Origin: a virus
Strand: one strand, 5' to 3'
Virus record (IMG/VR): IMGVR_UViG_3300007760_000054
Span: 1 to 34,092 of that record
Length of the DNA stretch: 34,092 bases
Shown piece after piece: positions 2,213-25,462 of the stretch. A program made the position numbers and the translations under genes. Position 1 is the stretch's first letter; each line of letters opens with the position of its first letter. The notes beneath the pieces are model-generated. The model did not search any database. It was given only the letters and a program-made list of their open reading frames with translations, and had not been told where the DNA came from.

Positions 2213-3133
2213 TTATTGATTATCTTCCGCTAAACGTGCAAAATAATCCATCTTTTCTTCTCCTGCATCAGTATCAATATTTAATTCAGGAGTTTCTACT
2301 TTTTCTTCTATTCGACCAAACTTAGTACTAGGAGATTCCAAAACTACTTCTTCTTGTAAATCTGTATCATTATCTTCTACTGTACCAATATCCTTTGACT
2401 GTCCTAATGCTCTAGCTAACGAAACTTGTAACTCCTCATAAGTTTTAAATTTCTCATCAGAAAGAAATTCTTCTAACTTATATTGCTGTTTCCATACTTC
2501 CTCTAATTCAGAATCAGTACCAAACAGTGGCTTTCGTTCATCAAATTCAGAACGATCATAATTTGGCCATCCATCAACTTTACGAATTTTGAGTTTAAGG
2601 TCGGCGCCTTCCCACAAATCAAACGGATTAAAAGCTACTTCATCCTTAAATTCAGGATTCATAGCTTCGGAAAGTTTATCATAAATCTTCTTACCATAAC
2701 GATAAAGCATAACTTTACCTTCATTCTGCGGATTAGACGGATCATGAACAACATATATGTTGGAAACATGACGTAATCTACGTTTCTGTTTACGAGCTAT
2801 ATCTTTATCAGATTCAACACCCGAATTCCACAATGAAGTATTAAATTCACATGCCGGACATTTTTTATTGATAGATGTCAAACAATTCTCAATAAACCAA
2901 CCGCCAGAACCTTGAAACCCGTGATCCCAATATTTAATCCAAGGAACTGTCTCTCCTTCAGATTGTGGAAGAAAACGAACTACAGCAAATCCGTTACCAC
3001 CTTTATCTCTTTCAGGATACCAGAATCTATCATCCTGAAATGATTGTGTTTCATTTTGTGAACTTTCAACTGCCTTACGAACTGTATCCATCATAGATTT
3101 ACGATCTTTCTTCATATTTGCAAATGTAGACAT
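2213..3133 (-). CDS. 32: Single-stranded DNA-binding protein gp32
   Basis: 306 residues, the usual length for the T4 gp32 family. It coats ssDNA during phage replication, recombination and repair. The T4-type zinc site is present as His71, Cys84, Cys92 and Cys95 (C-P-A-C at 92-95). It is followed by the conserved run of the core around VHDPSNPQNEGKV and YRYGKKI. The Lys-rich N-terminus (KKDRK) corresponds to the cooperativity domain, and the last ~20 residues form the acidic tail used to recruit partners. It lies 4 nt downstream of gp59 and is the last gene before the terminator at 2067-2120. Identification is firm. Confidence 0.95.
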   Translation of the reverse strand: MSTFANMKKDRKSMMDTVRKAVESSQNETQSFQDDRFWYPERDKGGNGFAVVRFLPQSEGETVPWIKYWDHGFQGSGGWFIENCLTSINKKCPACEFNTSLWNSGVESDKDIARKQKRRLRHVSNIYVVHDPSNPQNEGKVMLYRYGKKIYDKLSEAMNPEFKDEVAFNPFDLWEGADLKLKIRKVDGWPNYDRSEFDERKPLFGTDSELEEVWKQQYKLEEFLSDEKFKTYEELQVSLARALGQSKDIGTVEDNDTDLQEEVVLESPSTKFGRIEEKVETPELNIDTDAGEEKMDYFARLAEDNQ

Positions 3134-3137
3134 AGTA

Positions 3138-3737
3138 TTACCTCAATATTTCTAATATTTTTTCTTTATATTGTTTAATATTACCAAAATCTATAAAATG
3201 ACTATATCGAATTAATAAATTATAGATTTCAGGCCAGACATATTCGTCTTTAATAAAATTTCTCCAGTCCTCTAAATAATTGGTTAATCGATCCAAGATA
3301 AGCATTGTTTCTAACGAAAAATCACCCTTTAAATGATTTTTCAATAAAATAGGATGCTTTCCATCTTCGACTACAAAAAAAGAATTAAACGAGTTATCAG
3401 AATCTACCAAACCCTGAACTTCATTCACAACATGATAGGATAATCGTTCTAACTTTGCTTTCCAATTAGAATAAACTGAAAAACCTTCTTCTTGATTAAT
3501 AACTGCACCATCTTGTTGACCATAAACAAAATTAGAAACAAAATAACCCAATAACTGATCAGGTGAATATGATTCTGACAGTTTCTCAAAATAATAACGA
3601 TCCTTCCGCTTAGTCAATGCTTCAGGACTAACCTTAACACCACCCTTCGCTTTCACATAATTAAATTTTTTATCGGAAAAATGCAATTTCACACCAAGAT
3701 ACATTCTATAAACTTGTATTGGTTGTGTTTTAATCAT
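3138..3737 (-). CDS. 59: Replicative helicase loader gp59
   Basis: 199 residues (T4 gp59 is about 217). In T4 this protein loads the gp41 helicase onto gp32-coated forks. The N-terminal YRMYLGVKLHF..K and the following YFEKLSESYSPDQLLGYFVSNF segments resemble gp59 of T4-like phages. Its ATG overlaps the gp33 stop as ATGA, and it is followed 4 nt later by gp32, the conserved T4 order 33-59-32. The call rests on sequence pattern plus synteny. Confidence 0.88.
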   Translation of the reverse strand: MIKTQPIQVYRMYLGVKLHFSDKKFNYVKAKGGVKVSPEALTKRKDRYYFEKLSESYSPDQLLGYFVSNFVYGQQDGAVINQEEGFSVYSNWKAKLERLSYHVVNEVQGLVDSDNSFNSFFVVEDGKHPILLKNHLKGDFSLETMLILDRLTNYLEDWRNFIKDEYVWPEIYNLLIRYSHFIDFGNIKQYKEKILEILR

Positions 3738-3970
3738 ACCGGTAATGTATTTACTTTATTAGATAAAAAATTTCGTTCTCGGGCTTCCAACTCCAATTTA
3801 GCTTTCAATGTATTATCAATTAATTTTTTTAAAATATTGTAATCAATTTCATGTTCATCACAATAAAACATTACTGCATCTATATATGAAGTATCTTCTT
3901 CCTGCACTAATTGTTCTATCTCCATACTAAATGTTTCCTTGTTATTAAATAAGGAAGCTATTTCATTCAT
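3734..3970 (-). CDS. 33: Late-promoter transcription accessory protein gp33
   Basis: 78 residues, shorter than T4 gp33 (112) but typical for marine T4-like relatives. In T4, gp33 links RNA polymerase to the sliding clamp and works with sigma gp55 at late promoters. The core pattern (EIEQLVQ, SYIDAV, YCDEHEID, then an amphipathic helix rich in K/E/L) matches the gp33 family. It is the first gene of the 33-59-32 unit, with a strong promoter 24-53 nt upstream. RBS is AGAGGGAAT just before the ATG. Confidence 0.85.
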   Translation of the reverse strand: MNEIASLFNNKETFSMEIEQLVQEEDTSYIDAVMFYCDEHEIDYNILKKLIDNTLKAKLELEARERNFLSNKVNTLPV

Positions 3971-7520: not shown

Positions 7521-8351
7521 TTAACCGCCCAACAACTGTAAAACAGAAGCAGAAAGTTGTTGTGCTTGAGCCATTAATGCAATAGCTGTTTGTTGTTCAA
7601 TTCTATAACTAGTCAATTTAGCCATCTCTGATGCTTCATCAAAATCATTAATAGTGGCAATAGATTCTTCATTAATACCAATCATACGTTCCATATGAGA
7701 AATAGTAAAATCGAATCTTTCAATTTTAGCCAACTGATTAGATCTCTCACCCTCTAATGATGCAAGAGCAGTTTCCAATCTTGTTACTGCATCTTCAGCA
7801 TCAGCAACAGTATCCAATTTAGCTACAGCTACTGCCTGATTATTATCATCAGTATAAGCACCAAGCTTTAATCCTTCTAATGTAAGATCACCTAATTCAA
7901 CACTAACTGTCTGATCAGTATTAACACCATCAATAACAAAACTTTTAGTTCCAAAAGAACCATCAATCAATTCTGTTCCATCATATTCTGTATTCTGTGC
8001 AACATAATCAATTTCAGCAGACAATTCATTATACTCATCCATCAAAGCTAAACGTTGGGATGCTGTTAATTGATCGTCTTGTGCCTCAGTAGCAACCTCT
8101 TTCATTTTAAGAACAACAGCAGTAATAGAATCTGTTCCTACAAGAGCAGACTCCAACAAATCTTGATTCTGTTTAACTACTTTATGTGCTGTCTGTAACG
8201 TATGAATAGTATTATTAATTCTACCCATTTTAATTTTATCAGCCGATCCAATATCAGCCGTTCCAGATGCCAGCCTTGACATCGTTTCTTCAACCATTTT
8301 TGTGGCTTCTTGATAACGTCCTAAAGTTTTTTGTGTAATTCCTGATAACAT
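7521..8351 (-). CDS. Flagellin-like protein
   Basis: 276 residues from the ATG at 8351 with RBS CGGAGAATTGT. It has the two-ended flagellin layout. The N-terminal helices contain MSRLASGTADIGSADKIK (compare RLSSG..I.SA.D), a middle helix with MKEVATEAQDD and the QNTEYDGTELIDG turn. The C-terminus has ERFDFTISHMERMI, NDFDEASEMAKLTSYRIEQQ and AQAQQLSASVLQLLGG. The variable middle (about 140-185) is short. The first ~15 residues of a normal flagellin N-terminus are missing. A flagellin on a phage genome is unusual; it could be virion-borne, a decoy or co-assembling subunit, or a captured host gene. Confidence 0.85.
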   Translation of the reverse strand: MLSGITQKTLGRYQEATKMVEETMSRLASGTADIGSADKIKMGRINNTIHTLQTAHKVVKQNQDLLESALVGTDSITAVVLKMKEVATEAQDDQLTASQRLALMDEYNELSAEIDYVAQNTEYDGTELIDGSFGTKSFVIDGVNTDQTVSVELGDLTLEGLKLGAYTDDNNQAVAVAKLDTVADAEDAVTRLETALASLEGERSNQLAKIERFDFTISHMERMIGINEESIATINDFDEASEMAKLTSYRIEQQTAIALMAQAQQLSASVLQLLGG

Positions 8352-8387
8352 ACAATTCTCCGCTTTCATAATTTAAAAAATTATGTA

Positions 8388-12182: not shown

Positions 12183-12763
12183 TTCAAATCCCCCCTCCCT
12201 ACTCGTTCAGTAGGTGATTCACTTTGTTTGAATTCCGGAAATTGTTTTTCTAATTCTTCCAATCTCTTTAACTTCATATCAAAATCATAATCAGAAATCT
12301 CAGGATCATTATCCTCATAATACTTCTTCTCATGATATTCCAATTCATCAACTAGACTATTTATTTCAGCAAACGCTTGTGCGGCTGTTATACTATTATT
12401 ATCGACAGCTTTCTTAGAAACTTTAACTTTTTTTACAGGTTTTGTAAAATTATTTTTCTCATTATCCTTCTTTACCTCTTCTAAAGAAGGAGGATCAATT
12501 ATATTCCATCTCTTTCTAGCAAAATCTTCATCAAAATACTCCAATGCACTTTGACATAAAGTATTATTAGTAGTACGAAATTTCTCTGGAAGTTCTTGAA
12601 ACATATAATCATGCCGAAGAACATCGGAAAGATTGGCGTACCAATCTCTCCAAAGATCCACATAATACATTGAACGAGCATAAGACGTATCAATACCAGA
12701 AATTAAAGGTTCATTCTCTAAAGTAGCCTTTTGACCTCGTTTATAAATTTCTTCAAGCTCCAC
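12179..12763 (-). CDS. Protein with orphan NAD+-dependent DNA ligase Ia domain
   Basis: 194 residues from a GTG start with strong RBS GGAGGTAGCAA. Residues ~1-95 are an unrecognised helical domain (LWRDWYANLSDVLRHDYMF). A Lys-rich linker follows. Residues ~133-189 match domain Ia of LigA: YHEKKYYEDNDPEISDYDFD, then LKRLEELEKQFPEF and SPTERVG. In LigA this domain grips the NMN half of NAD+. The nucleotidyltransferase, OB and BRCT parts are absent, because the frame ends right after the SPTERVG motif. It may bind NAD+, work with a ligase core encoded elsewhere, or be a remnant. Confidence 0.75.
   Translation of the reverse strand: MELEEIYKRGQKATLENEPLISGIDTSYARSMYYVDLWRDWYANLSDVLRHDYMFQELPEKFRTTNNTLCQSALEYFDEDFARKRWNIIDPPSLEEVKKDNEKNNFTKPVKKVKVSKKAVDNNSITAAQAFAEINSLVDELEYHEKKYYEDNDPEISDYDFDMKLKRLEELEKQFPEFKQSESPTERVGRGDLK
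12387..12427 (-). promoter_or_regulatory. 41-nt promoter-like element (copy 1), inside a CDS
   Basis: A diverged copy (GTCGATAATAATAGTAT... with TTTC upstream at the usual distance) of the element described at 17081-17121. It lies within the coding sequence of the ligase-domain protein, at the codons for KKVKVSKKAVDNNSI. Could serve the 69-residue gene downstream, or be a chance likeness. Confidence 0.4.
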
Positions 12764-15830: not shown

Positions 15831-17057
15831 TCAAAATGGTACTTCTTCAGTCTGTTCCTCTTCAACTGGCTTTTCTTCAAGTTTGGAATAAAGATCACTC
15901 AATGCGGCCTTCGTATCATCATCAAATCTTGAGATACAAACATTGATGGCCTTATCTTCCTTTCCAAATATCTTAAACGCATTAACAATATGAACAAGGC
16001 GGCGAGTTGAAATTACTTCATCAAGACCACCATCATCATAAGTTTTACGAACAATGTCAGCCCAATTAACAAGCCGATCCAAAAACTTATCATCATATTC
16101 CAACTCCTTCAATTCTAATCTTAAAATTTTCTTTTCAGTAACGGCTGTAGGATAGGACTGCTCTAACGTAATAGCGAATCTTTCAAGAAACGCCTCATTA
16201 AGAATGTTAGTTCCAATGAATTGACCATGCTCCGACCCTTTACCCTTTGTGTTAGCAGTAGCAATAACATTGAAACCAGGTTTGGGTTTAACCCACCGAT
16301 TAACTTTTTTAAGATAGACACCTGAACCCTCCAATACGGGTTGCAAACACATAATTTTATTTGATGCTAAATCAATTTCATCTAGGAGAAGTATTGCACC
16401 TCTCTCCATAGCATCTACTACTGGACCATTGTGCCAGACAGTATTGCCGTTAATCAATCTAAAACCACCAAGCAAATCATCTTCATCCGTTTCAATAGTA
16501 ATGTTAGCACGAACCAATTCTCTATTTGATCTGGCACAAGCCTGATCAACCATCAACGTTTTACCGTTACCAGAAAGACCTGTAATAAAAACAGGATAAA
16601 ATATCTCCGATTTGATTATACTAAGAATATCTTTAGAATTTCCAAATGGAACATACTTCTCAGATTTATCAGGAACTAAATTTACATCCTCTTTTGGTAT
16701 TTCCACTATTTCTGCCTGTTGTTGAGATTCTTCAACTACTTGTGGAACTATTTTTGTAGTAACTGGCATTTGTCCTTTTTTCATTGGTACAATGTTATTA
16801 TAAGTTTCTAATGGAAAATCTCCATTAATTCCTTCGACACCTTCTTTCGCTTTTAATGCTTCTGGCAATTTACCATCGATAGGTAATTTATACAAACCAG
16901 CAGATGTTCTAAATTCAGGTCTTTGAATCCAACCCGGTTTTTTAACATCATAAGTATCTGTAATAACTTGCAATTCAGCTTTGGTTAATTCATCTTTATC
17001 ATAATGACTATAAGCACATTTAACAAAGGTCATATGATTGTGATTCAAAGATTTCAT
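15831..17057 (-). CDS. AAA+ ATPase, CobS/MoxR-like
   Basis: 408 residues. Residues 1-140 form an N-terminal extension. Walker A is GLSGNGKT (160-167), Walker B ILLLDEID (222-229), sensor-1 ATANT (266-270) and an arginine finger at LERF (Arg293). The C-terminal tail is acidic (EEKPVEEEQTEEVPF). This is the CobS type known from T4-like marine phages and partners the VWA protein downstream. A 41-nt element (17081-17121) puts its start codon about 22 nt after the predicted transcription start. Confidence 0.9.
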   Translation of the reverse strand: MKSLNHNHMTFVKCAYSHYDKDELTKAELQVITDTYDVKKPGWIQRPEFRTSAGLYKLPIDGKLPEALKAKEGVEGINGDFPLETYNNIVPMKKGQMPVTTKIVPQVVEESQQQAEIVEIPKEDVNLVPDKSEKYVPFGNSKDILSIIKSEIFYPVFITGLSGNGKTLMVDQACARSNRELVRANITIETDEDDLLGGFRLINGNTVWHNGPVVDAMERGAILLLDEIDLASNKIMCLQPVLEGSGVYLKKVNRWVKPKPGFNVIATANTKGKGSEHGQFIGTNILNEAFLERFAITLEQSYPTAVTEKKILRLELKELEYDDKFLDRLVNWADIVRKTYDDGGLDEVISTRRLVHIVNAFKIFGKEDKAINVCISRFDDDTKAALSDLYSKLEEKPVEEEQTEEVPF

Positions 17058-17080
17058 TCTTAATTATTCTCCATTTAGTT

Positions 17081-17121
17081 GCTATATTATAATTATCGAC
17101 AGTTATGCCGAAAACTTTAGC
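17081..17121 (-). promoter_or_regulatory. 41-nt promoter element (copy 2) for the AAA+ gene
   Basis: Minus strand, 5' to 3': GCTAAAGTTTTCGGC, variable 6 nt, TGTCGATAAT, TATAAT, ATAGC. The -10 TATAAT and a -35-like GTTTTC are 18 nt apart. Ten copies in the window keep identical length and spacing, and seven lie 10-35 nt before a start codon. GTCGATAAT between the boxes is nearly invariant, so a dedicated activator or specialised holoenzyme is likely. Confidence 0.8.
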
Positions 17122-17122
17122 T

Positions 17123-17320
17123 TTATTTTTTATCTAAATCAATTACAGTTGAAGCGTCTAATAAGGTTAGGCTATCACGTTCCTCATTCCAATCCTCAAC
17201 CTTAACGAAATACTCAACTATTCTATCCATTGTAATTGGTTGTTCAGATTCCAAGTCATAAATAAAAGGTTCAGTATTCCTAAACTCCACCAATAAACTT
17301 TGTTTATAAATTCTAGCCAT
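17123..17320 (-). CDS. Small acidic protein, unknown
   Basis: 65 residues from the ATG at 17320 (TGATG overlap with the previous stop; RBS AAGGTGAGGG). Segments MARIYKQSLLVEFRNTEPF and DWNEERDSLTLLDASTV; probably a small alpha/beta fold. Not recognised. Confidence 0.65.
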   Translation of the reverse strand: MARIYKQSLLVEFRNTEPFIYDLESEQPITMDRIVEYFVKVEDWNEERDSLTLLDASTVIDLDKK

Positions 17321-17681
17321 CACCCTCACCTTGATTAAAAGTTTTACGCATATCTTCCTGACGACTATATTCTATAAAATCATCATAGGTCTTATTTAAT
17401 TCATCAACATAAGCCTGTTTTGAGGTTTTTTTATCTTCATTTATAATAATATCTACATTTTCCTGATTTATAACTGTTTCACCAGTTGAATCATTATCAT
17501 TAACTATATCACTCACTAAGGAATCTATAGTTTCTGTATAAGAATCAATCTTATCCACGTACTTCATTATAGAATATGTATCTGCATCATTACCTAATTC
17601 ACATAAATCAACAGCCTCAGTAGCTAATTCATAAATTTGACTAAAACAGTATTTAGCAATACCAATCTTAACATCTACCAT
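17313..17681 (-). CDS. Acidic small protein, unknown
   Basis: 122 residues from the ATG at 17681, preceded by GGAGGAGATAGTATA; the upstream in-frame ATG (17708) is too close to the predicted transcription start. Acidic and helical, rich in Asp/Glu/Thr (ELGNDADTYSIMKYVDKIDSY). First gene of the promoter at 17713-17742. Confidence 0.7.
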   Translation of the reverse strand: MVDVKIGIAKYCFSQIYELATEAVDLCELGNDADTYSIMKYVDKIDSYTETIDSLVSDIVNDNDSTGETVINQENVDIIINEDKKTSKQAYVDELNKTYDDFIEYSRQEDMRKTFNQGEGDG

Positions 17682-17712
17682 TATACTATCTCCTCCAGCG
17701 TAGGACATCTAT

Positions 17713-17742
17713 ATTATAACATTTTTAACCAGCCCCTGTCAA
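17713..17742 (-). promoter_or_regulatory. Extended -10 sigma70 promoter for the 122-aa gene
   Basis: AGCC-TTGACA (17742-17737), 18-nt spacer, TGT-TATAAT (17718-17713), ATAG after it. Same class as the sites at 3994, 8905 and 11937. Predicted start about 25 nt before the ATG. Confidence 0.88.
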
Positions 17743-17744
17743 GG

Positions 17745-17918
17745 CTAATTTCGTGGATACTTAAATCCAATCGTCTTTTTTTCCTGTAACTTCTCTACTA
17801 CTTTGGTTAATTCACCACCCCACACATCACTAGGGATAACATCCCAAAGATTAACCCCGATCGCATGGGATACTTTGGTAATTCTCCTAATAATCTTATT
17901 CCTTTTCTTAGTTTTCAT
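17745..17918 (-). CDS. Small basic protein, unknown
   Basis: 57 residues from the ATG at 17918, overlapping the previous stop. N-terminus strongly basic (MKTKKRNKIIRRITK), then a region with DVIPSDVWGGELTKVVEKL. Ends 2 nt before the next promoter's -35. Not recognised. Confidence 0.55.
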   Translation of the reverse strand: MKTKKRNKIIRRITKVSHAIGVNLWDVIPSDVWGGELTKVVEKLQEKKTIGFKYPRN

Positions 17919-18108
17919 CATCATCATCCAATTCATCTAACCAAGCTATTATGGAATCTTCAGCATCAGAACACCATTGAATTAAATCATGTGATCCAAT
18001 GATATTGGCCCATAAAAATACTAAATCCAAAAAAAACCTAACAGAATAAAGAAAAAATAATCCTGTTAAAAAGGTTATATGGAATAACAACCATTGTATA
18101 AATTTCAT
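17908..18108 (-). CDS. Small membrane protein
   Basis: 66 residues from the ATG at 18108 (ATGA overlap; RBS GGGGA). Two adjacent hydrophobic stretches (about 3-20 and 24-40) and an acidic tail ending DELDDDDEN. Not recognised. Confidence 0.55.
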   Translation of the reverse strand: MKFIQWLLFHITFLTGLFFLYSVRFFLDLVFLWANIIGSHDLIQWCSDAEDSIIAWLDELDDDDEN

Positions 18109-18263
18109 TCCCCATTTGCCCATTCCTGTAGTCGTTGAAATAACTTTTCAGCAGATTCAGGAGAAAAAATAGAATATAATCCTATCAAAGAAACACACAA
18201 AGTACCACAGATCATTCCCAATACTGCAATAAAACCTTTTATGGCATCAAATATCAATCCCAT
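18105..18263 (-). CDS. Small membrane protein
   Basis: 52 residues: MGLIFDAIKGFIAVLGMICG..., one membrane helix (about 9-33) and a short polar C-terminus. Overlaps both neighbours by a few bases, as is usual in this cluster. Not recognised. Confidence 0.55.
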   Translation of the reverse strand: MGLIFDAIKGFIAVLGMICGTLCVSLIGLYSIFSPESAEKLFQRLQEWANGE

Positions 18264-18490
18264 AAGTTATCCTCCTCATCTAAATCATAGATTATTTCAT
18301 TTATATCTATTTTTGGCGGATTTTCATCCAATTCTGCAATTTGATCCAAATCAGTAACGATGTCAATTAGATCTTCCAACATTTCTTCTAGTTTTTGGGA
18401 ATTGGTACCACTTAATTCAGTAGTAAATTCCTCTAAAATCTCTGAAATTCTAGAGGAAACCATAGTTAGGGAATCAATTAAATCGGACAT
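18254..18490 (-). CDS. Acidic helical small protein
   Basis: 78 residues from the ATG at 18490 (RBS GAGAAATAAA); the longer frame upstream overlaps the previous gene. Rich in Leu/Glu/Asp (EEMLEDLIDIVTDLDQIAEL), pI clearly low. Not recognised; acidic proteins of this kind sometimes mimic DNA, but no evidence here. Confidence 0.65.
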   Translation of the reverse strand: MSDLIDSLTMVSSRISEILEEFTTELSGTNSQKLEEMLEDLIDIVTDLDQIAELDENPPKIDINEIIYDLDEEDNLWD

Positions 18491-18491
18491 T

Positions 18492-18698
18492 TTATTTCTC
18501 CGAGTCAAAAGGTTCATCAAAATGGATTTCATATAAATCTTCAATTTCTTCATCCGACATATTTCTATAGCCTTGACAACCATCCATTAGAATGTCATAA
18601 ATATCACTCCACTGTATATTTTCATATTCGGCATCACATAACATATCCCGCATAATTTGGTATTTGGTACTGTTATCATGGACATCTGTAGTTAACAT
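18492..18698 (-). CDS. Acidic small protein, unknown
   Basis: 68 residues, Asp/Glu/Tyr-rich (NIQWSDIYDILMDGCQGYRN, then SDEEIEDLYEIHFDE). The C-terminal half resembles the C-terminus of its upstream neighbour 18692-18919 in layout (SxDEIxxLYE against SEDELYEEIE), which may mean a distant duplication. Not recognised. Confidence 0.65.
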   Translation of the reverse strand: MLTTDVHDNSTKYQIMRDMLCDAEYENIQWSDIYDILMDGCQGYRNMSDEEIEDLYEIHFDEPFDSEK

Positions 18699-18919
18699 TC
18701 TATAATCTCCTGTTGGTCAAAAATATATCCAAAGCCCCATTTTTCAATTTCTTCGTATAATTCATCTTCGGACAAAGTTTTTAGGTGTTCAAACATGGTA
18801 GATCTAAATGTTTCCAATAAATCTTTATAATCCATATTAGAAAGTAGAGCTTCCACATATTCTAATCGTAATTTATCAAGATCAATTTCCCTTTCAGTTG
18901 GAATTGCTAAATCAAACAT
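18692..18919 (-). CDS. Acidic small protein, unknown
   Basis: 75 residues (MFDLAIPTEREIDLDKLRL...). Helical, acidic, ends GFGYIFDQQEIIEC. Start codon 12 nt after promoter element copy 3, so it may be translated from a very short leader. Not recognised. Confidence 0.65.
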   Translation of the reverse strand: MFDLAIPTEREIDLDKLRLEYVEALLSNMDYKDLLETFRSTMFEHLKTLSEDELYEEIEKWGFGYIFDQQEIIEC

Positions 18920-18920
18920 C

Positions 18921-19154
18921 TTAATCTCCGCTTATATTATTATTATCGACAGTTTCATCGGAAACTTTAGTTAAATTTTGAAACTTTTTTTCGATTTCCG
19001 TTACTGAATCAACGTACGGCCTAATAGTGGAAGTTTCAAACAAATCATCAGCCATTTCCATGCCTTGAGCAATTGCTTGACTTTCAGTATCGGCACTTAC
19101 TGTAATATAACAAGGCCAAATTATTCTTACCGCATATTTTTTAAGCTCGGACAT
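18921..19154 (-). CDS. Small protein, unknown; 3' end carries a promoter element
   Basis: 77 residues. The core AVRIIWPCYITVSADTESQA suggests a small ferredoxin-like alpha/beta fold. The last ~17 codons (LTKVSDETVDNNNISGD) coincide with promoter element copy 3. Stop is 1 nt before the next gene's ATG region. Not recognised. Confidence 0.65.
   Translation of the reverse strand: MSELKKYAVRIIWPCYITVSADTESQAIAQGMEMADDLFETSTIRPYVDSVTEIEKKFQNLTKVSDETVDNNNISGD
18931..18971 (-). promoter_or_regulatory. 41-nt promoter element (copy 3), overlapping a CDS end
   Basis: Same spacing as copy 2, with -10 variant TAATAT and upstream CTAAAGTTTCCG. It lies in the last codons of 18921-19154 and just before the start of 18692-18919. 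Confidence 0.6.
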
Positions 19155-19338
19155 CTAAATTACTCCCCCACTTTTTGTCTGCTAGTGGATGACTTTTATT
19201 TTTTCTCGGATCTAAGGCATTTTTCATAGAATCTGTAACTGCCTCAACCCTTTGTACACGTTTTGCTGCCTGTACTTCCATATAGGCACGATAATAATCA
19301 TATATATCCATTGTTTGGACACCATATGTGTTAATCAT
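19141..19338 (-). CDS. Small protein, unknown
   Basis: 65 residues: MINTYGVQTMDIYDYYRAYMEVQAAKR..., helical with a basic C-terminus (DPRKNKSHPLADKKW). Overlaps both neighbours by 8-14 nt. Not recognised. Confidence 0.6.
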   Translation of the reverse strand: MINTYGVQTMDIYDYYRAYMEVQAAKRVQRVEAVTDSMKNALDPRKNKSHPLADKKWGSNLDVRA

Positions 19339-19510
19339 CTAATTTTTCCATATTATCAACTACGATTTGACATAAATCGTCCTTAAATTTTTCATATACC
19401 GTGTAGTATTCGATATTTTCGTTTAATGATTCAAAATAGGATAGAATATCTTCCTGAATCTGTTCTGAAATTTCTGCTACTGAGTATTGATATGGGATAT
19501 TAACTTTCAT
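19331..19510 (-). CDS. Small acidic protein, unknown
   Basis: 59 residues (MKVNIPYQYSVAEISEQIQE..., ending DNMEKLDD). Helical, Tyr/Glu-rich. Overlaps its neighbours by 8-11 nt in the coupled style of this cluster. Not recognised. Confidence 0.6.
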   Translation of the reverse strand: MKVNIPYQYSVAEISEQIQEDILSYFESLNENIEYYTVYEKFKDDLCQIVVDNMEKLDD

Positions 19511-19679
19511 AATAAATCCTTTTCATTTGTTTCCATAAGCTACCATCAACTATGGGTCCTGTCATAATATACAAGCCCCATATACCAAGGAAAAGAGCCG
19601 GGATATTACCCAAACTAGCCAGCACGTTAAAAATAAACGCAAGTAACGCAATGGAACCTCCTAAAAAGTATCTAAGCAT
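19500..19679 (-). CDS. Small membrane protein
   Basis: 59 residues from the ATG at 19679 (start-stop overlap with the previous gene; a start at 19694 is also possible). Two hydrophobic helices (MLRYFLGGSIALLAFIFNVL and the ALFLGIWGLYIM region) and a polar end. Not recognised. Confidence 0.5.
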   Translation of the reverse strand: MLRYFLGGSIALLAFIFNVLASLGNIPALFLGIWGLYIMTGPIVDGSLWKQMKRIYYES

Positions 19680-19821
19680 CAGTTGAATTGGCATTAGGTG
19701 AATAAATCTTTTGACATTTATTCATACCTTGCATAAAACCATTAAAATGTCCTATAGTATACGCCATTACACCTGTCGTAACTATAATAATACCCATAAT
19801 TATCATTTGTGCTATATCCAT
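19672..19821 (-). CDS. Small single-helix membrane protein
   Basis: 49 residues, MDIAQMIIMGIIIVTTGVMA helix followed by a short polar tail with one Cys. RBS GGAGGGAGAGGA in the end of the preceding gene. Not recognised. Confidence 0.55.
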   Translation of the reverse strand: MDIAQMIIMGIIIVTTGVMAYTIGHFNGFMQGMNKCQKIYSPNANSTDA

Positions 19822-19823
19822 TA

Positions 19824-19997
19824 CTATCCTCTCCCTCCACCTAGAAAATGTTCGCTAATCCACTTCACAATTTTTTCCCATGTTGTTAATTTCTTAATCG
19901 GTTTACGTTTTTTACCCCTCTGTTTCAATGTAAGACCAGTAGGCAAAGGAGCCTCATCTATTTTTTGGTCAAATGTTTTCTTTCGTACAAATTTCAC
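19824..19997 (-). CDS. Small basic protein, unknown
   Basis: 57 residues from a GTG start with RBS AGGAGG. Very basic (RKKTFDQK at the start; KQRGKKRKPIKKLTTWEKI in the middle), ending Gly-rich. Probably nucleic-acid binding by charge only. Confidence 0.55.
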   Translation of the reverse strand: MKFVRKKTFDQKIDEAPLPTGLTLKQRGKKRKPIKKLTTWEKIVKWISEHFLGGGRG

Positions 19998-20016
19998 CTT
20001 ATACCTCCTATCTTAA

Positions 20017-20232
20017 TTAAATACCAAACACATCATCCTGGCATGATTGGCAGAGGCCAGAAATTTGATATTCTTTAATTGATATATCGTCCTTAAAATC
20101 TGCTTCCACAATATCATTAGTATCGCAGGTCATACAGGAGCCAGCCATAATCGTAGCCGGTCTACTTTTCCCAAAGATTTTAGCTAATTCTAATTCCAAT
20201 TCCGATCTTTTTTGTGTAGGTACGATTCCCAT
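20017..20232 (-). CDS. Small zinc-binding protein, unknown
   Basis: 71 residues from the ATG at 20232 (GGAGG RBS). Residues 1-30 helical (KRSELELELAKIFGKSRP), then CMTC and CQSC about 25 residues apart, a likely zinc knuckle pair. Not recognised further. Confidence 0.7.
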   Translation of the reverse strand: MGIVPTQKRSELELELAKIFGKSRPATIMAGSCMTCDTNDIVEADFKDDISIKEYQISGLCQSCQDDVFGI

Positions 20233-20233
20233 C

Positions 20234-20335
20234 TTATTTTCCTCCTGTATCATGTCCATTCTTAACAATTACAACCACTGCCGCTACTGACGATACTATC
20301 CAAACCGCTATACAAACTACTATCACTGGATCCAT
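20234..20335 (-). CDS. Tiny membrane protein
   Basis: 33 residues, one membrane helix (MDPVIVVCIAVWIVSSVAAV...) and a short polar tail. TAATG overlap with the gene before it, and its own end carries the RBS of the next gene. Confidence 0.5.
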   Translation of the reverse strand: MDPVIVVCIAVWIVSSVAAVVVIVKNGHDTGGK

Positions 20336-20559
20336 TATTCTGCCTTATATCCTAAATCCGTTGCAATATCTACTATTTCTGAGGTTATAATTTCATGAAT
20401 ACCATCAAAACTATATTCCTCAGTCTTATCAACTATCGTTTTCCACTGTTCATCTGTAAAATTATACTCAAAGTAGGAATCCTTATCCCACCATAAAGCT
20501 ACAATTTCATCATTTGGTTTGTAACCATCCAAATACTTTCGTAAATCCTTAACTGTCAT
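20335..20559 (-). CDS. Small acidic protein, unknown
   Basis: 74 residues: MTVKDLRKYLDGYKPNDEIV, a pattern common in small phage proteins of this kind (KELIE.L...P.D.EV), then acidic helices. Starts one base into the previous stop. Confidence 0.65.
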   Translation of the reverse strand: MTVKDLRKYLDGYKPNDEIVALWWDKDSYFEYNFTDEQWKTIVDKTEEYSFDGIHEIITSEIVDIATDLGYKAE

Positions 20560-21305
20560 TAAGCGGCCCTCTCAATTTGTAATAATTCCCTAGAGGTATT
20601 ATACTTTTTGGCACCATGATACTTATATACCACTACCGGTACATCCGGATCCCAACATGCCCTACAATCACCACAAGAATTTTTTTGACTAGATGCCGGA
20701 CAGAAAAACCAATCCTCTTCGTCCTTCATTTTATCAAACTTTTCCGTAGTATAAGTGGTACTAGACCATTCATATTTATCAGATTTAAGGACTGTATCTT
20801 TCATGGGTGCCGATACCCGAATTATCATATTATTTGGAGGCTCTGCCACCTTTAGATAATCCTGATATATCTGATATTCTTTAGTAGGAACCCAGAAATT
20901 TATATGGGTACAAGCATATGCCACAGTGGCAATATCCATTAGCATTTTTAGTGATTGAATGTCACCACTATCAAAAAATCTAAAGAATGGTTCCTTAGCC
21001 ATCACTGTGCTTTCATGGAAAAAATGGATCATGGATTGAACCCACAGTAATGGATCTTTAATGTAGGCTTGGTGCCGACGTTCATAAGCATTTTGAGTAT
21101 TTTCCCAAATGTATGCACCACTGTCGGCATAGCACCCATGACAGGTGCTACCTTCAACGTCAATAAGTTGGGAGCCAGTGATACAATAATCAATTGGAAT
21201 TCCCCAAGACAATCCAGGCATTTTACTTGGATCACTGAATTGTCCAACATTTTCTTTACAATCTTTAATTGTAAGTTTAGCTAGGTTACCATTCGGTAGT
21301 CCCAT
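20559..21305 (-). CDS. Gp88-family cysteine protein
   Basis: 248 residues. TCHGCYAD (Cys55, Cys58), then FFRFFDSGDIQS (108-118) and THINFWVPTKE match the pattern of the phage Gp88 family (TCPxxC..CYA, FR...SGD, FW..T). A C-terminal Cys cluster (Cys202, 211, 214, 217; NSCGDCRACWDP) probably completes a metal or Fe-S site. The biochemical role of the family is not established to my knowledge. It is the largest gene of the small-gene cluster. Confidence 0.75.
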   Translation of the reverse strand: MGLPNGNLAKLTIKDCKENVGQFSDPSKMPGLSWGIPIDYCITGSQLIDVEGSTCHGCYADSGAYIWENTQNAYERRHQAYIKDPLLWVQSMIHFFHESTVMAKEPFFRFFDSGDIQSLKMLMDIATVAYACTHINFWVPTKEYQIYQDYLKVAEPPNNMIIRVSAPMKDTVLKSDKYEWSSTTYTTEKFDKMKDEEDWFFCPASSQKNSCGDCRACWDPDVPVVVYKYHGAKKYNTSRELLQIERAA

Positions 21306-21472
21306 TAAAATTCTCTCCTTAATGTTCTTAATACTATAACCATAATATCTTGATCTAAAATGTCACCACATCCAGGTGTCCATGTTCGATCATTATCATC
21401 CATCACCTGTTTAACAGAGGTGATCCAACTGCCACCTATAGCTAAACTATTCTCCACCGCCTTGACTATCAT
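21305..21472 (-). CDS. Small protein, unknown
   Basis: 55 residues from the ATG at 21472 (MIVKAVENSLAIGGSWITSV...), overlapping the end of 21447-21851 by 26 nt. A longer frame upstream merely shadows that gene. Start uncertain; the unique 3' part is otherwise unexplained coding-like DNA. Confidence 0.5.
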   Translation of the reverse strand: MIVKAVENSLAIGGSWITSVKQVMDDNDRTWTPGCGDILDQDIMVIVLRTLRREF

Positions 21473-21851
21473 CTGGCTCGGATGTGGACCCAACGTCCTC
21501 ACCATCCGCATCGGATCCGTTATCTTTTGTATCGGTGTCATTTTCCTCTTCCTCTCCACGGTGATCGGTATATATCTGAGGAACTTCAATTCCTTCAGTT
21601 TCCAGAAAATTTTCATAGGCTTCTGGATTTTCCCTAACTTGGTCATTGACCTCTTTATAATCAGCCATTTCCTGTGCCGCTATATCAGCTTCACGTTGGG
21701 CTAGGGCTTCCCGTTCTTGCTTTAGTTTAGCCACAGCGGCTTTTCTCAAACGTGATCTTACTGAAGTTTCCTTCGGTGTGTTATAACGTTTACGATTTTT
21801 AGCCTTTTCAATTTTACGTTCCCGATTCTTAATCCGTCTTAAATAACCCAT
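21447..21851 (-). CDS. Charged coiled-coil protein, unknown
   Basis: 134 residues. The N-terminal third is strongly basic (MGYLRRIKNRERKIEKAKNR), the middle is an Ala/Glu/Arg helix (KLKQEREALAQREADIAAQ), and the C-terminus is acidic and disordered (GEEEENDTDTKDNG, SQGGGE). Not recognised. Confidence 0.65.
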   Translation of the reverse strand: MGYLRRIKNRERKIEKAKNRKRYNTPKETSVRSRLRKAAVAKLKQEREALAQREADIAAQEMADYKEVNDQVRENPEAYENFLETEGIEVPQIYTDHRGEEEENDTDTKDNGSDADGEDVGSTSEPDDSQGGGE

Positions 21852-21864
21852 ATTATAATCTCCC

Positions 21865-22050
21865 CTAACTTTGTTTTTGAATAAGATTCATAACCCGCAG
21901 AATAGATCGGGCATCAGACATTTCCCGTTCTATCATTTCAGCCAGTTGTATCTGCTCATGGGCATCATCCGCATTGGGTATTTGTGTCGCCAGGTCGTCC
22001 ACAGTAGTCGTAATTCCTTCGAGTAGGTCCAGTAGTTCTTGCATTTTCAT
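21865..22050 (-). CDS. Small helical protein, unknown
   Basis: 61 residues from the ATG at 22050 (RBS AGGAGAGAA). Two helices with many Glu/Leu/Gln (LLDLLEGITTTVDDLATQI; MIEREMSDARSILRVM). Not recognised. Confidence 0.65.
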   Translation of the reverse strand: MKMQELLDLLEGITTTVDDLATQIPNADDAHEQIQLAEMIEREMSDARSILRVMNLIQKQS

Positions 22051-22057
22051 TTCTCTC

Positions 22058-22282
22058 CTAATGTTTTCCATATACTAAATTGTAATTGTAATTAAATTTG
22101 GCGGTTAACCAACTATCATAGACCGGATCATTCCATTTAAGTGGTAAAAAATCATCATCACATCCATGACTAATTTCACCATCAATTCCATGCTCTACTT
22201 TATAGATATTGCTATCTATTCCAACTATCCGATAAACTTGGTCAGAATAGGACTTGACCATTTGTCCGTTTGTAAAATTCAT
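22058..22282 (-). CDS. Small protein, unknown
   Basis: 74 residues from the ATG at 22282 (RBS AAAAAGAG); the GTG upstream lies too near promoter copy 4. A beta-strand pattern such as GQMVKSYSDQVYRIVGIDS and FLPLKWNDPVYDSW resembles small KOW/SH3-like phage proteins. Function unknown. Confidence 0.65.
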   Translation of the reverse strand: MNFTNGQMVKSYSDQVYRIVGIDSNIYKVEHGIDGEISHGCDDDFLPLKWNDPVYDSWLTAKFNYNYNLVYGKH

Positions 22283-22299
22283 ACTCTTTTTAATCACTT

Positions 22300-22340
22300 G
22301 CTATATTATAATTATCGACAGTTAAGCCGAAAACTTTAGC
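22300..22340 (-). promoter_or_regulatory. 41-nt promoter element (copy 4)
   Basis: Perfect match to copy 2 in the conserved blocks (TAAAGTTTTCGGC, TGTCGATAAT, TATAAT). Upstream of 22058-22282, with a leader of only about 20 nt. Overlaps the stop of 22336-23016. Confidence 0.8.
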
Positions 22341-23016
22341 TATATTTTCGATTTAGGAAAGCGGTAAAGGAATTGAAAATATCCTTTAATTCGGAGTATT
22401 CATTTTCTAATTCCTTATCCTTTTCCTTAAGTCTGTTAATCAGGTTAGCCCAAGTATATTGATTGATTAAAGGGGCTTTCGTTGAGCTAGGAACATACTT
22501 ATCAGTTTGGAACATTTTAGTTCCCTGAGTAGTTGGAACGTCCAAATCATTTGTTAAGGTATTACAGGATATAAAAAATGGTTCATCATATACTGCCTCG
22601 CCATTATCATCGGTAACAACCACAGCCATAACGTCAACGGTATTCAAATAGCTATGGGAATTACCAATTCCTTTTCTTTTCGATCCGGCATTGATTCTAT
22701 TTGTTAATGGAACATTTACCAAACCAGTCCCTAACAATGTAACTTGTTTAACTTGGACCTTTAAGGTATATTCGGCCATATAATCTACCATTAAATCATA
22801 TGGAAAAGATTGGTTAGTTGGTCTTGAGATTAGACAATTATTTTTAGCACAAAATTCCTCAACCCTTCTCTCACCATCATCACCTTTGGTATGGGTCAAA
22901 TTGTTATAATAACCATCAATCATTTTATCCCGTTCCGTATTTTCTGGCATTTCCTTTTCCTGTTGGTTAACGTTTGGGAATTGTAATGGCCAATGTTTAC
23001 TTTTCTGAATTGTCAT
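22336..23016 (-). CDS. Putative PD-(D/E)XK endonuclease-like protein
   Basis: 226 residues. Pattern KGDDGERRVEEFCAKN (Glu49), then FPYDLMVDYMAEYTLKVQVK (Asp74, Gln88-Val-Lys90), the layout of group-I-intron-type/PDDEXK_5 endonucleases (DL...D....QVK). C-terminal helices follow (LINRLKEKDKELENEYSEL). Promoter copy 5 lies 21-61 nt upstream. Early expression could suit host-DNA breakdown or competition; inference. Confidence 0.6.
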   Translation of the reverse strand: MTIQKSKHWPLQFPNVNQQEKEMPENTERDKMIDGYYNNLTHTKGDDGERRVEEFCAKNNCLISRPTNQSFPYDLMVDYMAEYTLKVQVKQVTLLGTGLVNVPLTNRINAGSKRKGIGNSHSYLNTVDVMAVVVTDDNGEAVYDEPFFISCNTLTNDLDVPTTQGTKMFQTDKYVPSSTKAPLINQYTWANLINRLKEKDKELENEYSELKDIFNSFTAFLNRKYS

Positions 23017-23036
23017 TTCACTAATCCCTTTTTGTT

Positions 23037-23077
23037 GCTATATTACTATTATCGACACAAACCCGGAAAACTTTAGC
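23037..23077 (-). promoter_or_regulatory. 41-nt promoter element (copy 5)
   Basis: Conserved GCTAAAGTTTTCCGG and TGTCGATAAT, but -10 is TAGTAA/AGTAAT instead of TATAAT. Upstream of 22336-23016. Confidence 0.7.
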
Positions 23078-23082
23078 ACTAA

Positions 23083-23160
23083 TTACGATTTATTTTTCGG
23101 TGAAAATAATACAATCGGTCCACCAAAAATAATTATTCCTATTCCAATTAACATCATCAT
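23083..23160 (-). CDS. Tiny hydrophobic peptide
   Basis: 25 residues, almost entirely one membrane helix (MMMLIGIGIIIFGGPIVLF) with a Lys-rich end. ATG lies 2 nt after the stop of the previous small membrane gene. Could be a real membrane peptide; short length makes this uncertain. Confidence 0.35.
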   Translation of the reverse strand: MMMLIGIGIIIFGGPIVLFSPKNKS

Positions 23161-23162
23161 TT

Positions 23163-23339
23163 CTACCATAATTTTTTTACTCCGGCTAATCTGTGAATAG
23201 TACCATCTAACAAGGCCCACCAAATTGCCATCAGTCCGGGAACGGCAAACATTATCGCCATTCCCGGTCCCATGGATCCCATCTCCATTCCACCAACGGA
23301 CCCTAATACTAGGAATCCTCCAGTTATCAATCTTATCAT
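23163..23339 (-). CDS. Small Met/Gly-rich membrane protein
   Basis: 58 residues, two hydrophobic stretches (MIRLITGGFLVLGSVGGMEM; MAIMFAVPGLMAIWWALL) with a basic end. TAATG overlap with the previous gene. Met- and Gly-rich. Not recognised. Confidence 0.55.
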   Translation of the reverse strand: MIRLITGGFLVLGSVGGMEMGSMGPGMAIMFAVPGLMAIWWALLDGTIHRLAGVKKLW

Positions 23340-23545
23340 TAACTTACGTCTCCACTGTTAAAAACTCTAACCTTATCCCAACGTTTATTATTCCAAAAAT
23401 TATCAATCAATCTATGGAAATCCATATCCGTTAGATAATGTTCCTTGGTACGTTCCGCCCTACGTTTATAAACAGCGGAACGGTTTGCATAACATAAGGT
23501 TACTTCCTGACTTCCTGATTTTGATCTAAATTTAATTTTGTTCAA
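23339..23545 (-). CDS. Small basic protein, unknown
   Basis: 68 residues from a TTG start that overlaps the stop of the clamp-motif gene (TAATTG), with GGAG upstream. Basic (SAVYKRRAERTKEHYL), then DFHRLIDNFWNNKRWDKVRV. Start codon is unusual but no better one is available. Confidence 0.55.
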   Translation of the reverse strand: MNKIKFRSKSGSQEVTLCYANRSAVYKRRAERTKEHYLTDMDFHRLIDNFWNNKRWDKVRVFNSGDVS

Positions 23546-23983
23546 TTAAAATAACTCCAATTGGGAATCATCTACTTTTGGTTCCTCAAATAGTTCCAAC
23601 TGTTTTTCAGCTTTTTTAGCATTTTTCGGCTTAGGGTTGACCGACTCACCTTTCTTGACAATTTTAAGATTAGACAAGGTCCACAATCCGCCAGCTTTTT
23701 TAGGCTTAGCCATTGCCACACGGTGTGTAATACCAGTCTCCAAACTTGTCATATATGCTTGATAATACATATCAAAGATGGCTTCCCGATCCTCAGTTAA
23801 CGGTGTAATATCTTTATTACGATTTTTGGCACCGTTAAATGTTACCCTAGCTTGGTCCAACTCAGGCGTGTTAAATCGTCCACCTTTACAGTATCCAACT
23901 TTACGTTCTACGCCGGTGAGATATGAGTAAGGTTTACCAGCATTTTTCGATCCAACTCTACTTACGCTAACTTTTAATGGCAT
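23546..23983 (-). CDS. HNH-like protein with two QLELF clamp-binding motifs
   Basis: 145 residues. The middle (about 65-108) has the HNH-endonuclease layout: MYYQAYMTSLETGITHRV, then GGLWTLSNLKIV, where active enzymes have V-D-H at 89-91 and H...N. Here those positions read VAMA, so the catalytic His and Asp are absent and activity is doubtful. The C-terminus carries QLELF twice (128-132 and 141-145, the latter being the last five residues). QLxLF is the consensus by which bacterial proteins bind the DnaN sliding clamp. Promoter copy 6 lies 32-72 nt upstream, arguing for early expression. Binding or blocking host DnaN is an inference. Confidence 0.7.
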   Translation of the reverse strand: MPLKVSVSRVGSKNAGKPYSYLTGVERKVGYCKGGRFNTPELDQARVTFNGAKNRNKDITPLTEDREAIFDMYYQAYMTSLETGITHRVAMAKPKKAGGLWTLSNLKIVKKGESVNPKPKNAKKAEKQLELFEEPKVDDSQLELF

Positions 23984-24014
23984 GTTGTAATTCTCTCCAA
24001 TTTTCTAATCACTT

Positions 24015-24055
24015 GCTATATTATAATTATCGACACAATTGCCGAAAACTTTAGC
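24015..24055 (-). promoter_or_regulatory. 41-nt promoter element (copy 6)
   Basis: Conserved block GCTAAAGTTTTCGGC, TGTCGATAAT, TATAAT, ATAGC. Upstream of the clamp-motif gene, leader about 30 nt. Confidence 0.8.
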
Positions 24056-24072
24056 TTTATTTTCAAATTATT

Positions 24073-24276
24073 TTAGAATTTTGAAAATCCTAAATCCAAG
24101 TTTAATATCGTAGATCCTTTCCAATTAAATGATTCAATCTCAATTAAATCACTTGCACAGGCGTCCCCTATTTGCATAGTAGACTCCGGATCGGCGGCTA
24201 TGTTAAACTCTACTTCCACGTTCCCATGTTCACGTTCCGCAGTTTGTAATTTTTGTATCAATTCTGAAAGTTTCAA
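24073..24276 (-). CDS. Small acidic protein, unknown
   Basis: 67 residues (MKLSELIQKLQTAEREHGNV...). The KLSELI..L...E..HG...V pattern is shared by many small phage proteins of unknown role. Promoter copy 7 lies 21-61 nt upstream. Confidence 0.65.
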   Translation of the reverse strand: MKLSELIQKLQTAEREHGNVEVEFNIAADPESTMQIGDACASDLIEIESFNWKGSTILNLDLGFSKF

Positions 24277-24296
24277 GATATTCTCCAGTGTTAGTT

Positions 24297-24337
24297 GCTA
24301 TATTATAATTATCGACAGTTAAGCCGAAAACTTTAGC
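24297..24337 (-). promoter_or_regulatory. 41-nt promoter element (copy 7)
   Basis: Conserved blocks as copy 2, including TATAAT and GCTAAAGTTTTCGGC. Upstream of 24073-24276. Confidence 0.8.
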
Positions 24338-24343
24338 TTTTTT

Positions 24344-24688
24344 TTAGCTATTATTGTAAAAATGTTTTCCTGATAGATTACTCTGATATTCTGTCAAAGT
24401 ATTATCAGATACAAAGTCCGACGTTCCCATCATCATATCGAGCCAATTTTCACTTGCTTTGATAGTCTTAAAAAATGCAAGAAAAATTTTTCCATCAAAA
24501 TCAGTAAACGAAACGTCGAACCCATGTTGGGTTTCTACTATCTCAAAATCTGTCAAGTCTAAATCAGTCTCCGAATTATCATCACGTTCCAACTCGTTAG
24601 ATTCTCCGAAAATTTTATCAAGATCTAAATTTTTTGCTAACGTTTCCAAGTCTATGCTGTTTTTCAATAAAAGTTGGTCTAATGTCAT
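24344..24688 (-). CDS. Acidic small protein, unknown
   Basis: 114 residues (MTLDQLLLKNSIDLETLAKN...). Acidic middle (ERDDNSETDLDLTDFEIVE), then a beta-like FDVSFTDFDGKIFLAFFKT. First gene after the tandem promoters at 24706-24975, so probably among the earliest made. Not recognised. Confidence 0.65.
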   Translation of the reverse strand: MTLDQLLLKNSIDLETLAKNLDLDKIFGESNELERDDNSETDLDLTDFEIVETQHGFDVSFTDFDGKIFLAFFKTIKASENWLDMMMGTSDFVSDNTLTEYQSNLSGKHFYNNS

Positions 24689-24705
24689 ACTATCTCCAAT
24701 TACTT

Positions 24706-24746
24706 GCTATATTATAATTATCGACACAATATCCAAAAACTTTAGC
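24706..24746 (-). promoter_or_regulatory. 41-nt promoter element (copy 8)
   Basis: Conserved blocks, with TTTTTGGATAT where others have TTTTCGGC. Upstream of 24344-24688 with a leader of about 15-20 nt. Confidence 0.75.
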
Positions 24747-24835
24747 TTTATTTTCAATAATCCGGAAAATAAATTTTTCAGATTTTTTGATTTTTCTGCT
24801 AGAATGTTTGGTTTGTGTTTCGATATTACTTGCGC

Positions 24836-24876
24836 CTCTACTTATAATTATCGACACAAATGCGGAAAACTTTAGC
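24836..24876 (-). promoter_or_regulatory. 41-nt promoter element (copy 9), tandem
   Basis: GCTAAAGTTTTCCGC, TGTCGATAATTATAA. Followed by AGTAGAGGCGCAAGTAATATC, also found after copy 10, so copies 9 and 10 are part of a roughly 99-bp duplication. Confidence 0.7.
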
Positions 24877-24934
24877 TTTATTTTCACTTTTTTTGAAATT
24901 AATTTTTGCATTTGTGTTTTGATATTACTTGCGC

Positions 24935-24975
24935 CTCTACTTATAATTATCGACAATTGTGGGGGAAACTTTAGC
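24935..24975 (-). promoter_or_regulatory. 41-nt promoter element (copy 10), tandem
   Basis: GCTAAAGTTTCCCCC, TTGTCGATAATTATAA. Farthest upstream of the series and adjacent to the palindromes at 24992-25031. No convincing gene lies between copies 10, 9 and 8. Confidence 0.7.
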
Positions 24976-24991
24976 TTTTTTTTGATGTTGA

Positions 24992-25031
24992 CACAAAATA
25001 ATTTTGTGGAAAAAAAATTTTGTATACAAAA
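24992..25031. repeat. Two adjacent palindromes in the gene-free region
   Basis: CACAAAATAATTTTGTG (24992-25008, 8+1+8) and TTTTGTATACAAAA (25018-25031, 7+7), separated by an A-run. Another short palindrome CCAATATTGG is at 25062-25071. They sit between the tandem promoters and the iteron array. Likely protein-binding or replication-related sites; inference. Confidence 0.6.
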
Positions 25032-25201
25032 AGTTATATCTTGATTCAGATGTATCGCTCGCCAATATTGGGAATCGGGCCCTGGTGTGTATGAAAAATA
25101 ATATTTATTAAAAGCCCTGGGGATCAGGCTTTCAGGATCTCAGTGTTTAGTTGTATGATTTTGTATACGTCTACAAATTTTTTTACAAAAAACTTCTCCG
25201 A

Positions 25202-25297
25202 GTGTATAGTAAATCATACACGTAGACACCTCCGAGTGTCTACTAAGCCGCACAGTGTCTACCATACCGCACACTGTATGAAATACCGCACACTTGA
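25202..25297. repeat. Cluster of inverted and direct repeats
   Basis: GTGTAT/ATACAC (25202-25221), GTAGACAC/GTGTCTAC with a 6-nt loop (25222-25243), ACAGTGT/ACACTGT (25252-25277). Direct repeats: TCCGAGTGT at two sites, CCGCACA at 25248, 25267 and 25286, spaced exactly 19 nt. No convincing ORF covers it. Together with the iterons downstream it looks like an origin or control region. Confidence 0.7.
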
Positions 25298-25321
25298 AAA
25301 TCGGGCGCACGTCGCCTTGAC

Positions 25322-25421: not shown

Positions 25422-25462
25422 CGGAGACCTAAAAAAAGAAAACAAGGTTTTTATTAGGTTTT

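Follow-up and report, generated by a model that had tools for sequence, protein, structure and literature searches.

The usual description of virulent phages is that they rely on the housekeeping sigma factor of their host and on factors of their own. In T4, the early promoters form arrays of the sigma70 type, and the middle promoters carry a phage-specific block upstream of TATAAT. Promoters of another class are read by the flagellar sigma factor, sigma28 (FliA in Escherichia coli), and their consensus has been printed as TAAAGTTT-n11-GCCGATAA (PMC2859248); according to one report, 30 of the 52 FliA sites of E. coli lie within genes (PMC4183435). One gene that derives from a phage, flxA, is known to be controlled by FliA; it is listed under the Qin prophage of E. 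coli (PMC5493296), and its expression is 280 in the wild type and 2 without fliA (PMC4203485). For the pelagimyophages, a published account gives the prediction of middle and late promoters as unsuccessful in this group (PMC7029224). Here we describe an array of ten 41-nt elements in viral DNA of 34,092 nucleotides (IMG/VR record IMGVR_UViG_3300007760_000054, positions 1 to 34,092; this whole stretch is referred to as the window), which comes from a marine virus of bacteria, T4-like because of its gp32, gp59 and gp33 homologues.

We consider it likely, judging from their sequence, that all ten elements are promoters of the sigma28 (FliA) type, read most likely by the flagellar sigma factor of the host. 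A promoter of a familiar kind is thus found in a carrier where it was not expected: flxA, as listed, is a single gene of a defective prophage, whereas here a phage genome of the lytic type carries an array. A limited search of titles and abstracts of the open-access literature returned no report of sigma28 promoters or arrays in a lytic phage.

Identity of the repeated element

The preliminary description reported ten elements with invariant spacing, each built of a block at one end, a central block and a TATAAT near the other end, and gave neither the motif nor its regulator as a known one. All ten are present, on the minus strand and with fixed spacing (Table 1). The window has exactly ten occurrences of the central block, GTCGATAAT, all on the minus strand; there is none on the plus strand and none of a reversed-pattern control. 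The outer blocks are less uniform than had been described: seven copies have GCTAAAGTTT(T/C)C unchanged, those at 24706, 18931 and 12387 having GCTAAAGTTTTT, ACTAAAGTTTCC and GTTAAAGTTTCT, respectively, in its place, while TATAAT is exact in five, the others having AGTAAT, AATAAT, AATAGT and (twice) TATAAG. Constant in every copy are TAAAGTTT, eleven bases and GTCGATAAT, with TGTCGATAAT at a fixed distance from TAAAGTTT.

Every element reads TAAAGTTT-N11-GTCGATAA, which corresponds to 15 of the 16 bases of the sigma28 consensus as printed, at the exact spacing and in all ten copies: the -35 sequence and the 11-bp spacer are complete, and seven of the eight bases of the -10 are matched. The two octamers are identical throughout, against nine different spacers and a variable TATAAT stretch behind the -10, suggesting that the octamers, and not TATAAT, are the constrained part. 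The motif is thus a known one, with the sequence of the flagellar sigma28 promoter, and this identification is well supported. The elements share with the E. coli FliA promoters (tar, tsr, fliC and others) the -35 TAAAGTTT and a -10 octamer exactly 11 bp apart, as can be seen from the comparison of tar (TAAAGTTTCCCCCCTCCTTGCCGATAAC) with the phage copy at 24946 (TAAAGTTTCCCCCACAATTGTCGATAAT). They differ in having GTC for GCC, in being present in ten copies in a T4-like phage, and in preceding phage genes, whereas the E. coli promoters precede flagellar and chemotaxis genes.

A matrix based on E. coli FliA sites mapped by chromatin immunoprecipitation sequencing (25 of 52, those in rows with a FAT value of at least 5; PMC4203485), and thus not trained on the elements, ranked the ten copies first in the window with 19.0 bits each, the next place scoring 12.1. 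The 25 E. coli sites themselves have a median of 17.0 (range 6.0-22.8, 8 of 25 as high as the elements). In 100 shuffled windows the best score averaged 13.8, and the calculated chance of a FliA match is about 1.2e-7 per position, or about 3e-6 somewhere in a 41-mer. Other promoter classes fitted to one copy reached 10/12 (SigD, a sigma28 relative), 9/12 (sigma70), 8/13 (sigma32), 7/8 (T4 late, opposite strand), 6/12 (sigmaE) and 6/12 (sigma54). A matrix from nine copies of the element gives those nine 53.7-77.1 (by construction) and the left-out copy at 12387 a score of 34.6, compared with -9.2 for the next place in the window and 0.9 for the best of 20 shuffles.

Relation to sigma70 and T4 middle promoters

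The conservation between the outer blocks had been ascribed to a dedicated activator or an altered holoenzyme acting on sigma70 promoters. The elements are probably promoters, and their reader probably an altered holoenzyme; a sigma70 TATAAT with an unknown activator is not supported, given that TATAAT is exact in only half of the copies, that the sigma70 fit is incomplete and that the phage has separate promoters of the sigma70 type. For such sigma70 promoters, helped by an activator or a modified holoenzyme binding the conserved blocks, speak the five exact TATAAT hexamers one base behind GTCGATAAT and one copy that fits a MotA-box pattern in 12 of 15 places. However, five copies have no TATAAT, the MotA-like fit falls in the variable spacer, and the best sigma70 fit in the ten copies is 7-9 of 12, short of a TTGACA and a TATAAT 16-18 bp apart. 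A scan of positions 16500-26000 gave no minus-strand sigma70 match that uses the TATAAT of an element; the matches overlapping elements lie on the plus strand (11, 10, 9 and 9 of 12) or are built on spacer bases, and the total of 41 compares with a shuffle level of 44.7. The fixed blocks by themselves equal a known sigma28 promoter, and we regard activated sigma70 promoters as very unlikely.

A T4 middle (MotA) promoter was rejected as well: it resembles the elements in having a block upstream of TATAAT, but these carry no conserved MotA box. Two further candidates were discarded. Rfam does not indicate an RNA element, its sole match in the window being a tRNA. For a repeat at the protein level, the copies at 12387 and 18931 do share a reading frame, but by our reading the differences between the copies alter amino acids while the octamers stay the same.

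Position of the elements and neighbouring genes

As had been described, seven elements lie shortly before minus-strand start codons. The distances, measured by hand, are 11-31 nt, a range in which ATG 22282, and not the listed GTG 22297, is taken as the start behind the copy at 22300. The tandem arrangement of three copies was also confirmed. The genes behind the elements are mostly small and of unassigned function, apart from a cobS-like and a PD-(D/E)XK-like gene, the latter assigned just above the Pfam cut-off. Searches with two genes of the array (20559-21305 and 22336-23016) returned only this phage. A longer, near-identical contig (G001, 52,569 bases) contains the same ten elements with no mismatches, plus three further matches with three mismatches each.

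Table 1. Features of the window and of related sites in other contigs
Feature	Position	Strand	Details
Sigma28-type element	12387..12427	-	inside gene 12179-12763; most divergent copy; TAAAGTTT-N11-GTCGATAA
Sigma28-type element	17081..17121	-	23 nt before cobS-like gene 15831-17057
Sigma28-type element	18931..18971	-	11 nt before gene 18692-18919; overlaps end of gene 18921-19154
Sigma28-type element	22300..22340	-	17 nt before ATG 22282 of gene 22058-22297
Sigma28-type element	23037..23077	-	20 nt before PD-(D/E)XK-like gene 22336-23016
Sigma28-type element	24015..24055	-	31 nt before gene 23546-23983
Sigma28-type element	24297..24337	-	20 nt before gene 24073-24276
Sigma28-type element	24706..24746	-	17 nt before gene 24344-24688; tandem
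Sigma28-type element	24836..24876	-	tandem; in 99-bp repeat 24812-25005
Sigma28-type element	24935..24975	-	tandem; in 99-bp repeat 24812-25005
Sigma70-type promoter TTGACA-N18-TATAAT	17713..17742	-	12/12
Homologues of gp32, gp59, gp33	2213..3970	-	phrog_224 1.5e-101, phrog_269 1.1e-46, phrog_254 7.7e-21
Flagellin gene	7521..8369	-	PF00669 5.8e-11, PF00700 2.6e-12
tRNA-Thr (TGT) gene	5165-5239	-	
Sigma28-type sites before RIIA-/RIIB-like genes	L294 (G003:75001-95000) 7591-11344; L292 (G009:60001-78422) 10453-12920		

Flagellin and the promoters of flagellin-bearing relatives

The phage encodes a flagellin, which suggests a flagellated host. This protein matches solved bacterial flagellins and has relatives at 13 viral loci (two being records of the same phage) and none in the phage records. 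A single locus was found in genome_contigs (L296, NZCQ01000013.1), on a contig binned with a metagenome-assembled genome of Pacearchaeota; it is 93.8-99.5% identical in DNA to the phage and still has the element at 12387, changed at one position of the spacer, and its archaeal filing is probably a binning error. No sigma28-type element stands directly before the flagellin gene. The flagellin gene is preceded by a gene for 68 amino acids (8388-8594, minus strand), which is also present in G037, G044 and G045, relatives that likewise encode a flagellin.

Promoters of the form TTGACA-N17/18-TATAAT are found in the phage at minus-strand positions 4023, 8933, 11966 and 17742, with two more in the longer contig beyond the window; a scan at one mismatch gave ten minus-strand matches in the window versus four in the control, and only the four positions named are counted here. 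The relatives encode flagellins 87% (G037) and 70% (G044 and G045) identical to that of the phage, as well as cobS-like genes and, in G037 and G044, cobT-like genes. Over the parts compared, G044 and G045 are almost the same, with identical matches 150 bases apart, and they count as one relative. For the sigma70 comparison we used the whole of G037, 26.9 kb of G044 and 17.2 kb of G045. Within these parts the relatives carry minus-strand arrays of CTTGAC-N17/18-TGGTATAAT-like promoters, with 11 in G037 (control 2), 9 in G044 (control 0) and 7 in G045 (control 0), and none of them has a sigma28-type match at up to two mismatches. At three mismatches the counts are four in G037 (control 0), three in G044 (control 3) and four in G045 (control 2), and the E. 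coli FliA matrix reaches a maximum of 12.4 in each part.

The arrays of the relatives resemble that of the window in being repeated strong promoters for the host polymerase before small minus-strand genes, and differ from it in sigma class; in G037 they also include a promoter immediately in front of the cobS-like frame, a place taken in the window by a sigma28-type element. They may be likened to the early promoters of T4, which has no sigma28-type site at up to one mismatch.

Sigma28-type sites in other viruses

In viral_contigs, a search with a 29-nt exact pattern of the element gave no match, and a 19-nt exact pattern retrieved only IMGVR_UViG_3300007513_000054, the near-identical phage. 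A blastn search of one element against 50,697 phage records was negative, and the matrix of the elements, applied to the collected loci (including the best 80 of 598 CobS relatives), found no copy outside this phage (maximum 14.3, versus 41-60 for real copies).

The sigma28 pattern itself (TAAAGTTT-N11-GYCGATAA) occurs in at least 118 stretches of viral_contigs, and the reversed pattern in at least 120. The placement of the former was counted for 115 loci (L104-L219 with L212, which is this phage, dropped; L089 and L090, also this phage, lie outside the set), some of which share a contig or are near-copies, so that they do not represent 115 independent viruses. Among the matches listed, 71 of 130 lie mostly outside predicted open reading frames (reversed pattern: 7 of 120), 60 of 130 stand at most 100 nt before a frame of at least 60 amino acids (12 of 120), and 11 of the 115 loci have two or more matches (0 of 120). 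Sites of the sigma28 type thus gather around the starts of genes in other phage contigs, unlike the reversed pattern. We also inspected 35 whole records, chosen by hand for their size or several matches and thus each with at least one by construction, which have 1-12 sigma28-type sites at up to one mismatch and no reversed pattern.

Annotation of 20 proteins from these contigs, selected for length or position, identified a terminase in G002 and in G005 and a weak portal match in G032. Moreover, G009 has a RIIA homologue behind two sigma28-type sites, and G003 a RIIB homologue behind a site with one mismatch (Table 1). The frame behind the neighbouring site of G003, itself outside the protein scan, resembles at its start the RIIA of G009, and both contigs hold a frame of 85-86 residues with a Sigma70_r4-like match. 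In G024, G022 and G032, TTGAC or TTGACA lies within the sigma28-type spacer, which looks like a sigma70 -35 superimposed on a sigma28 promoter. Two contigs were rejected as phage examples: G013, in which PHROGs matched neither of two proteins scanned, and G006 (IMGVR_UViG_3300010392_003462), a record of 30 kb whose ten sigma28-type sites lie within 4.6 kb (458-5037) and which by eye resembles a conjugative element more than a phage, although three presumed transfer proteins had no Pfam match. The related Salmonella phages Chi (NC_025442, 40093-40119) and iEPS5 (KC677662, 19025-19051) share one FliA-like site, TCAAGTTT-N11-GCCGATA, which in Chi falls inside gene 36.

Arguments against the sigma28 interpretation and remaining alternatives

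Several observations weigh against the interpretation of the elements as sigma28 promoters read by the host. Of the 52 E. coli FliA sites listed, no more than 5 have the GTC seen in the -10 of the elements, and one of the 100 shuffled windows reached 19.02 bits, never with ten such places. Three of the ten elements do not stand where the promoter of an obvious gene would, one lying inside a gene and the copies at 24836 and 24935 having no clear gene directly behind them. The array is absent from T4, Chi, HTVC008M, PBS1, AR9, 7-7-1, iEPS5 and KVP40 (0-2 sites each at up to two mismatches, control 0-1), four of which are known as flagellum-dependent, and since flagellin-bearing relatives lack it, flagellin and array are not tied. 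Furthermore, several copies have flanks in common (AAAATAAA before and AGCAAGTGATTA after), which together with the 99-bp tandem repeat indicates that part of their likeness results from recent copying, and at most 52.6 kb of an incomplete phage genome are available.

The shared flanks and the two copies in the tandem repeat speak for another view, in which the elements would be no promoters and would represent a repeated binding site or a mobile repeat that has recently spread through the region. Such a repeat would have to match FliA by a chance of about 3e-6, and it would leave aside that divergent copies retain the octamers and not the remainder, that seven copies are in promoter position and that the pattern recurs before open reading frames in other phage contigs. 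We find this explanation hardly credible.

Sigma28-type promoters could also be read by a sigma factor encoded in the remaining part of the phage genome. Weak Sigma70_r2 matches below the cut-off in three other contigs with such sites (G013, G017 and G024), and Sigma70_r4 matches in 6 of the 19 contigs scanned out of the 35 (over the cut-off in G009 and G017), are in line with this possibility. No Sigma70_r2 match, however, exceeds the cut-off in any of the 19. In the phage, no Sigma70_r2 domain was found in G000 or G001 and no Sigma70_r4 domain in G001 (52.6 kb, from an incomplete genome), which makes the flagellar sigma factor of the host the likeliest reader, and a phage-encoded one rather unlikely.

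Proposed function of the array

If the elements are sigma28-type promoters, a polymerase with a flagellar sigma factor, most likely that of the host, would recognise the -35 TAAAGTTT and the -10 GTCGATAA across the 11-bp spacer. Transcripts would begin a few bases further downstream, which in most copies falls in the ATATAGCAA stretch, and seven or more minus-strand genes or operons of the phage would be expressed in this way, mostly small genes without assigned function as well as the cobS-like gene. The host polymerase would then serve two promoter classes, of the sigma70 and the sigma28 type, the latter being probably used in cells running the motility programme. The sequence itself shows the match to the motif, its spacing and conservation, the position of the copies and the contrast with the sigma70 class; from these we infer the use by sigma28 in vivo, the host, the timing and any link with motility.

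A broader proposal, to which we give about even chances, is that some lytic phages place whole sets of genes under the flagellar sigma factor of the host and so tune infection to motile cells. This trait may have arisen more than once, with sigma28 promoters occupying here the slots held by sigma70 promoters in the relatives and governing genes of the rIIA/rIIB type elsewhere. If the array is one of flagellar-sigma promoters, a phage would sense the motility state of its host at the level of transcription, and scans for the motif could give hints of metagenomic phages whose hosts are motile.

Other features of the window

Further genes of the window encode CobS-like, CobT-like (peptidase) and ThyX proteins, and the nearest phage record is Pelagibacter phage HTVC008M, with 73.6% identity over 472 bases of the cobS-like gene. 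The second half of the gene at 12179-12763 (minus strand) resembles NAD-dependent DNA ligase, of which it matches the N-terminal part alone, and a sigma28-type element is situated near the junction. The small minus-strand genes at 19141-19338 and 8388-8594, 11 kb apart, have the same target in relatives (L270, about 3573-3779) and by their sequences look like paralogues. Upstream of the element array, a perfect tandem repeat of 20 bp is present in 4.3 copies (25322-25416).

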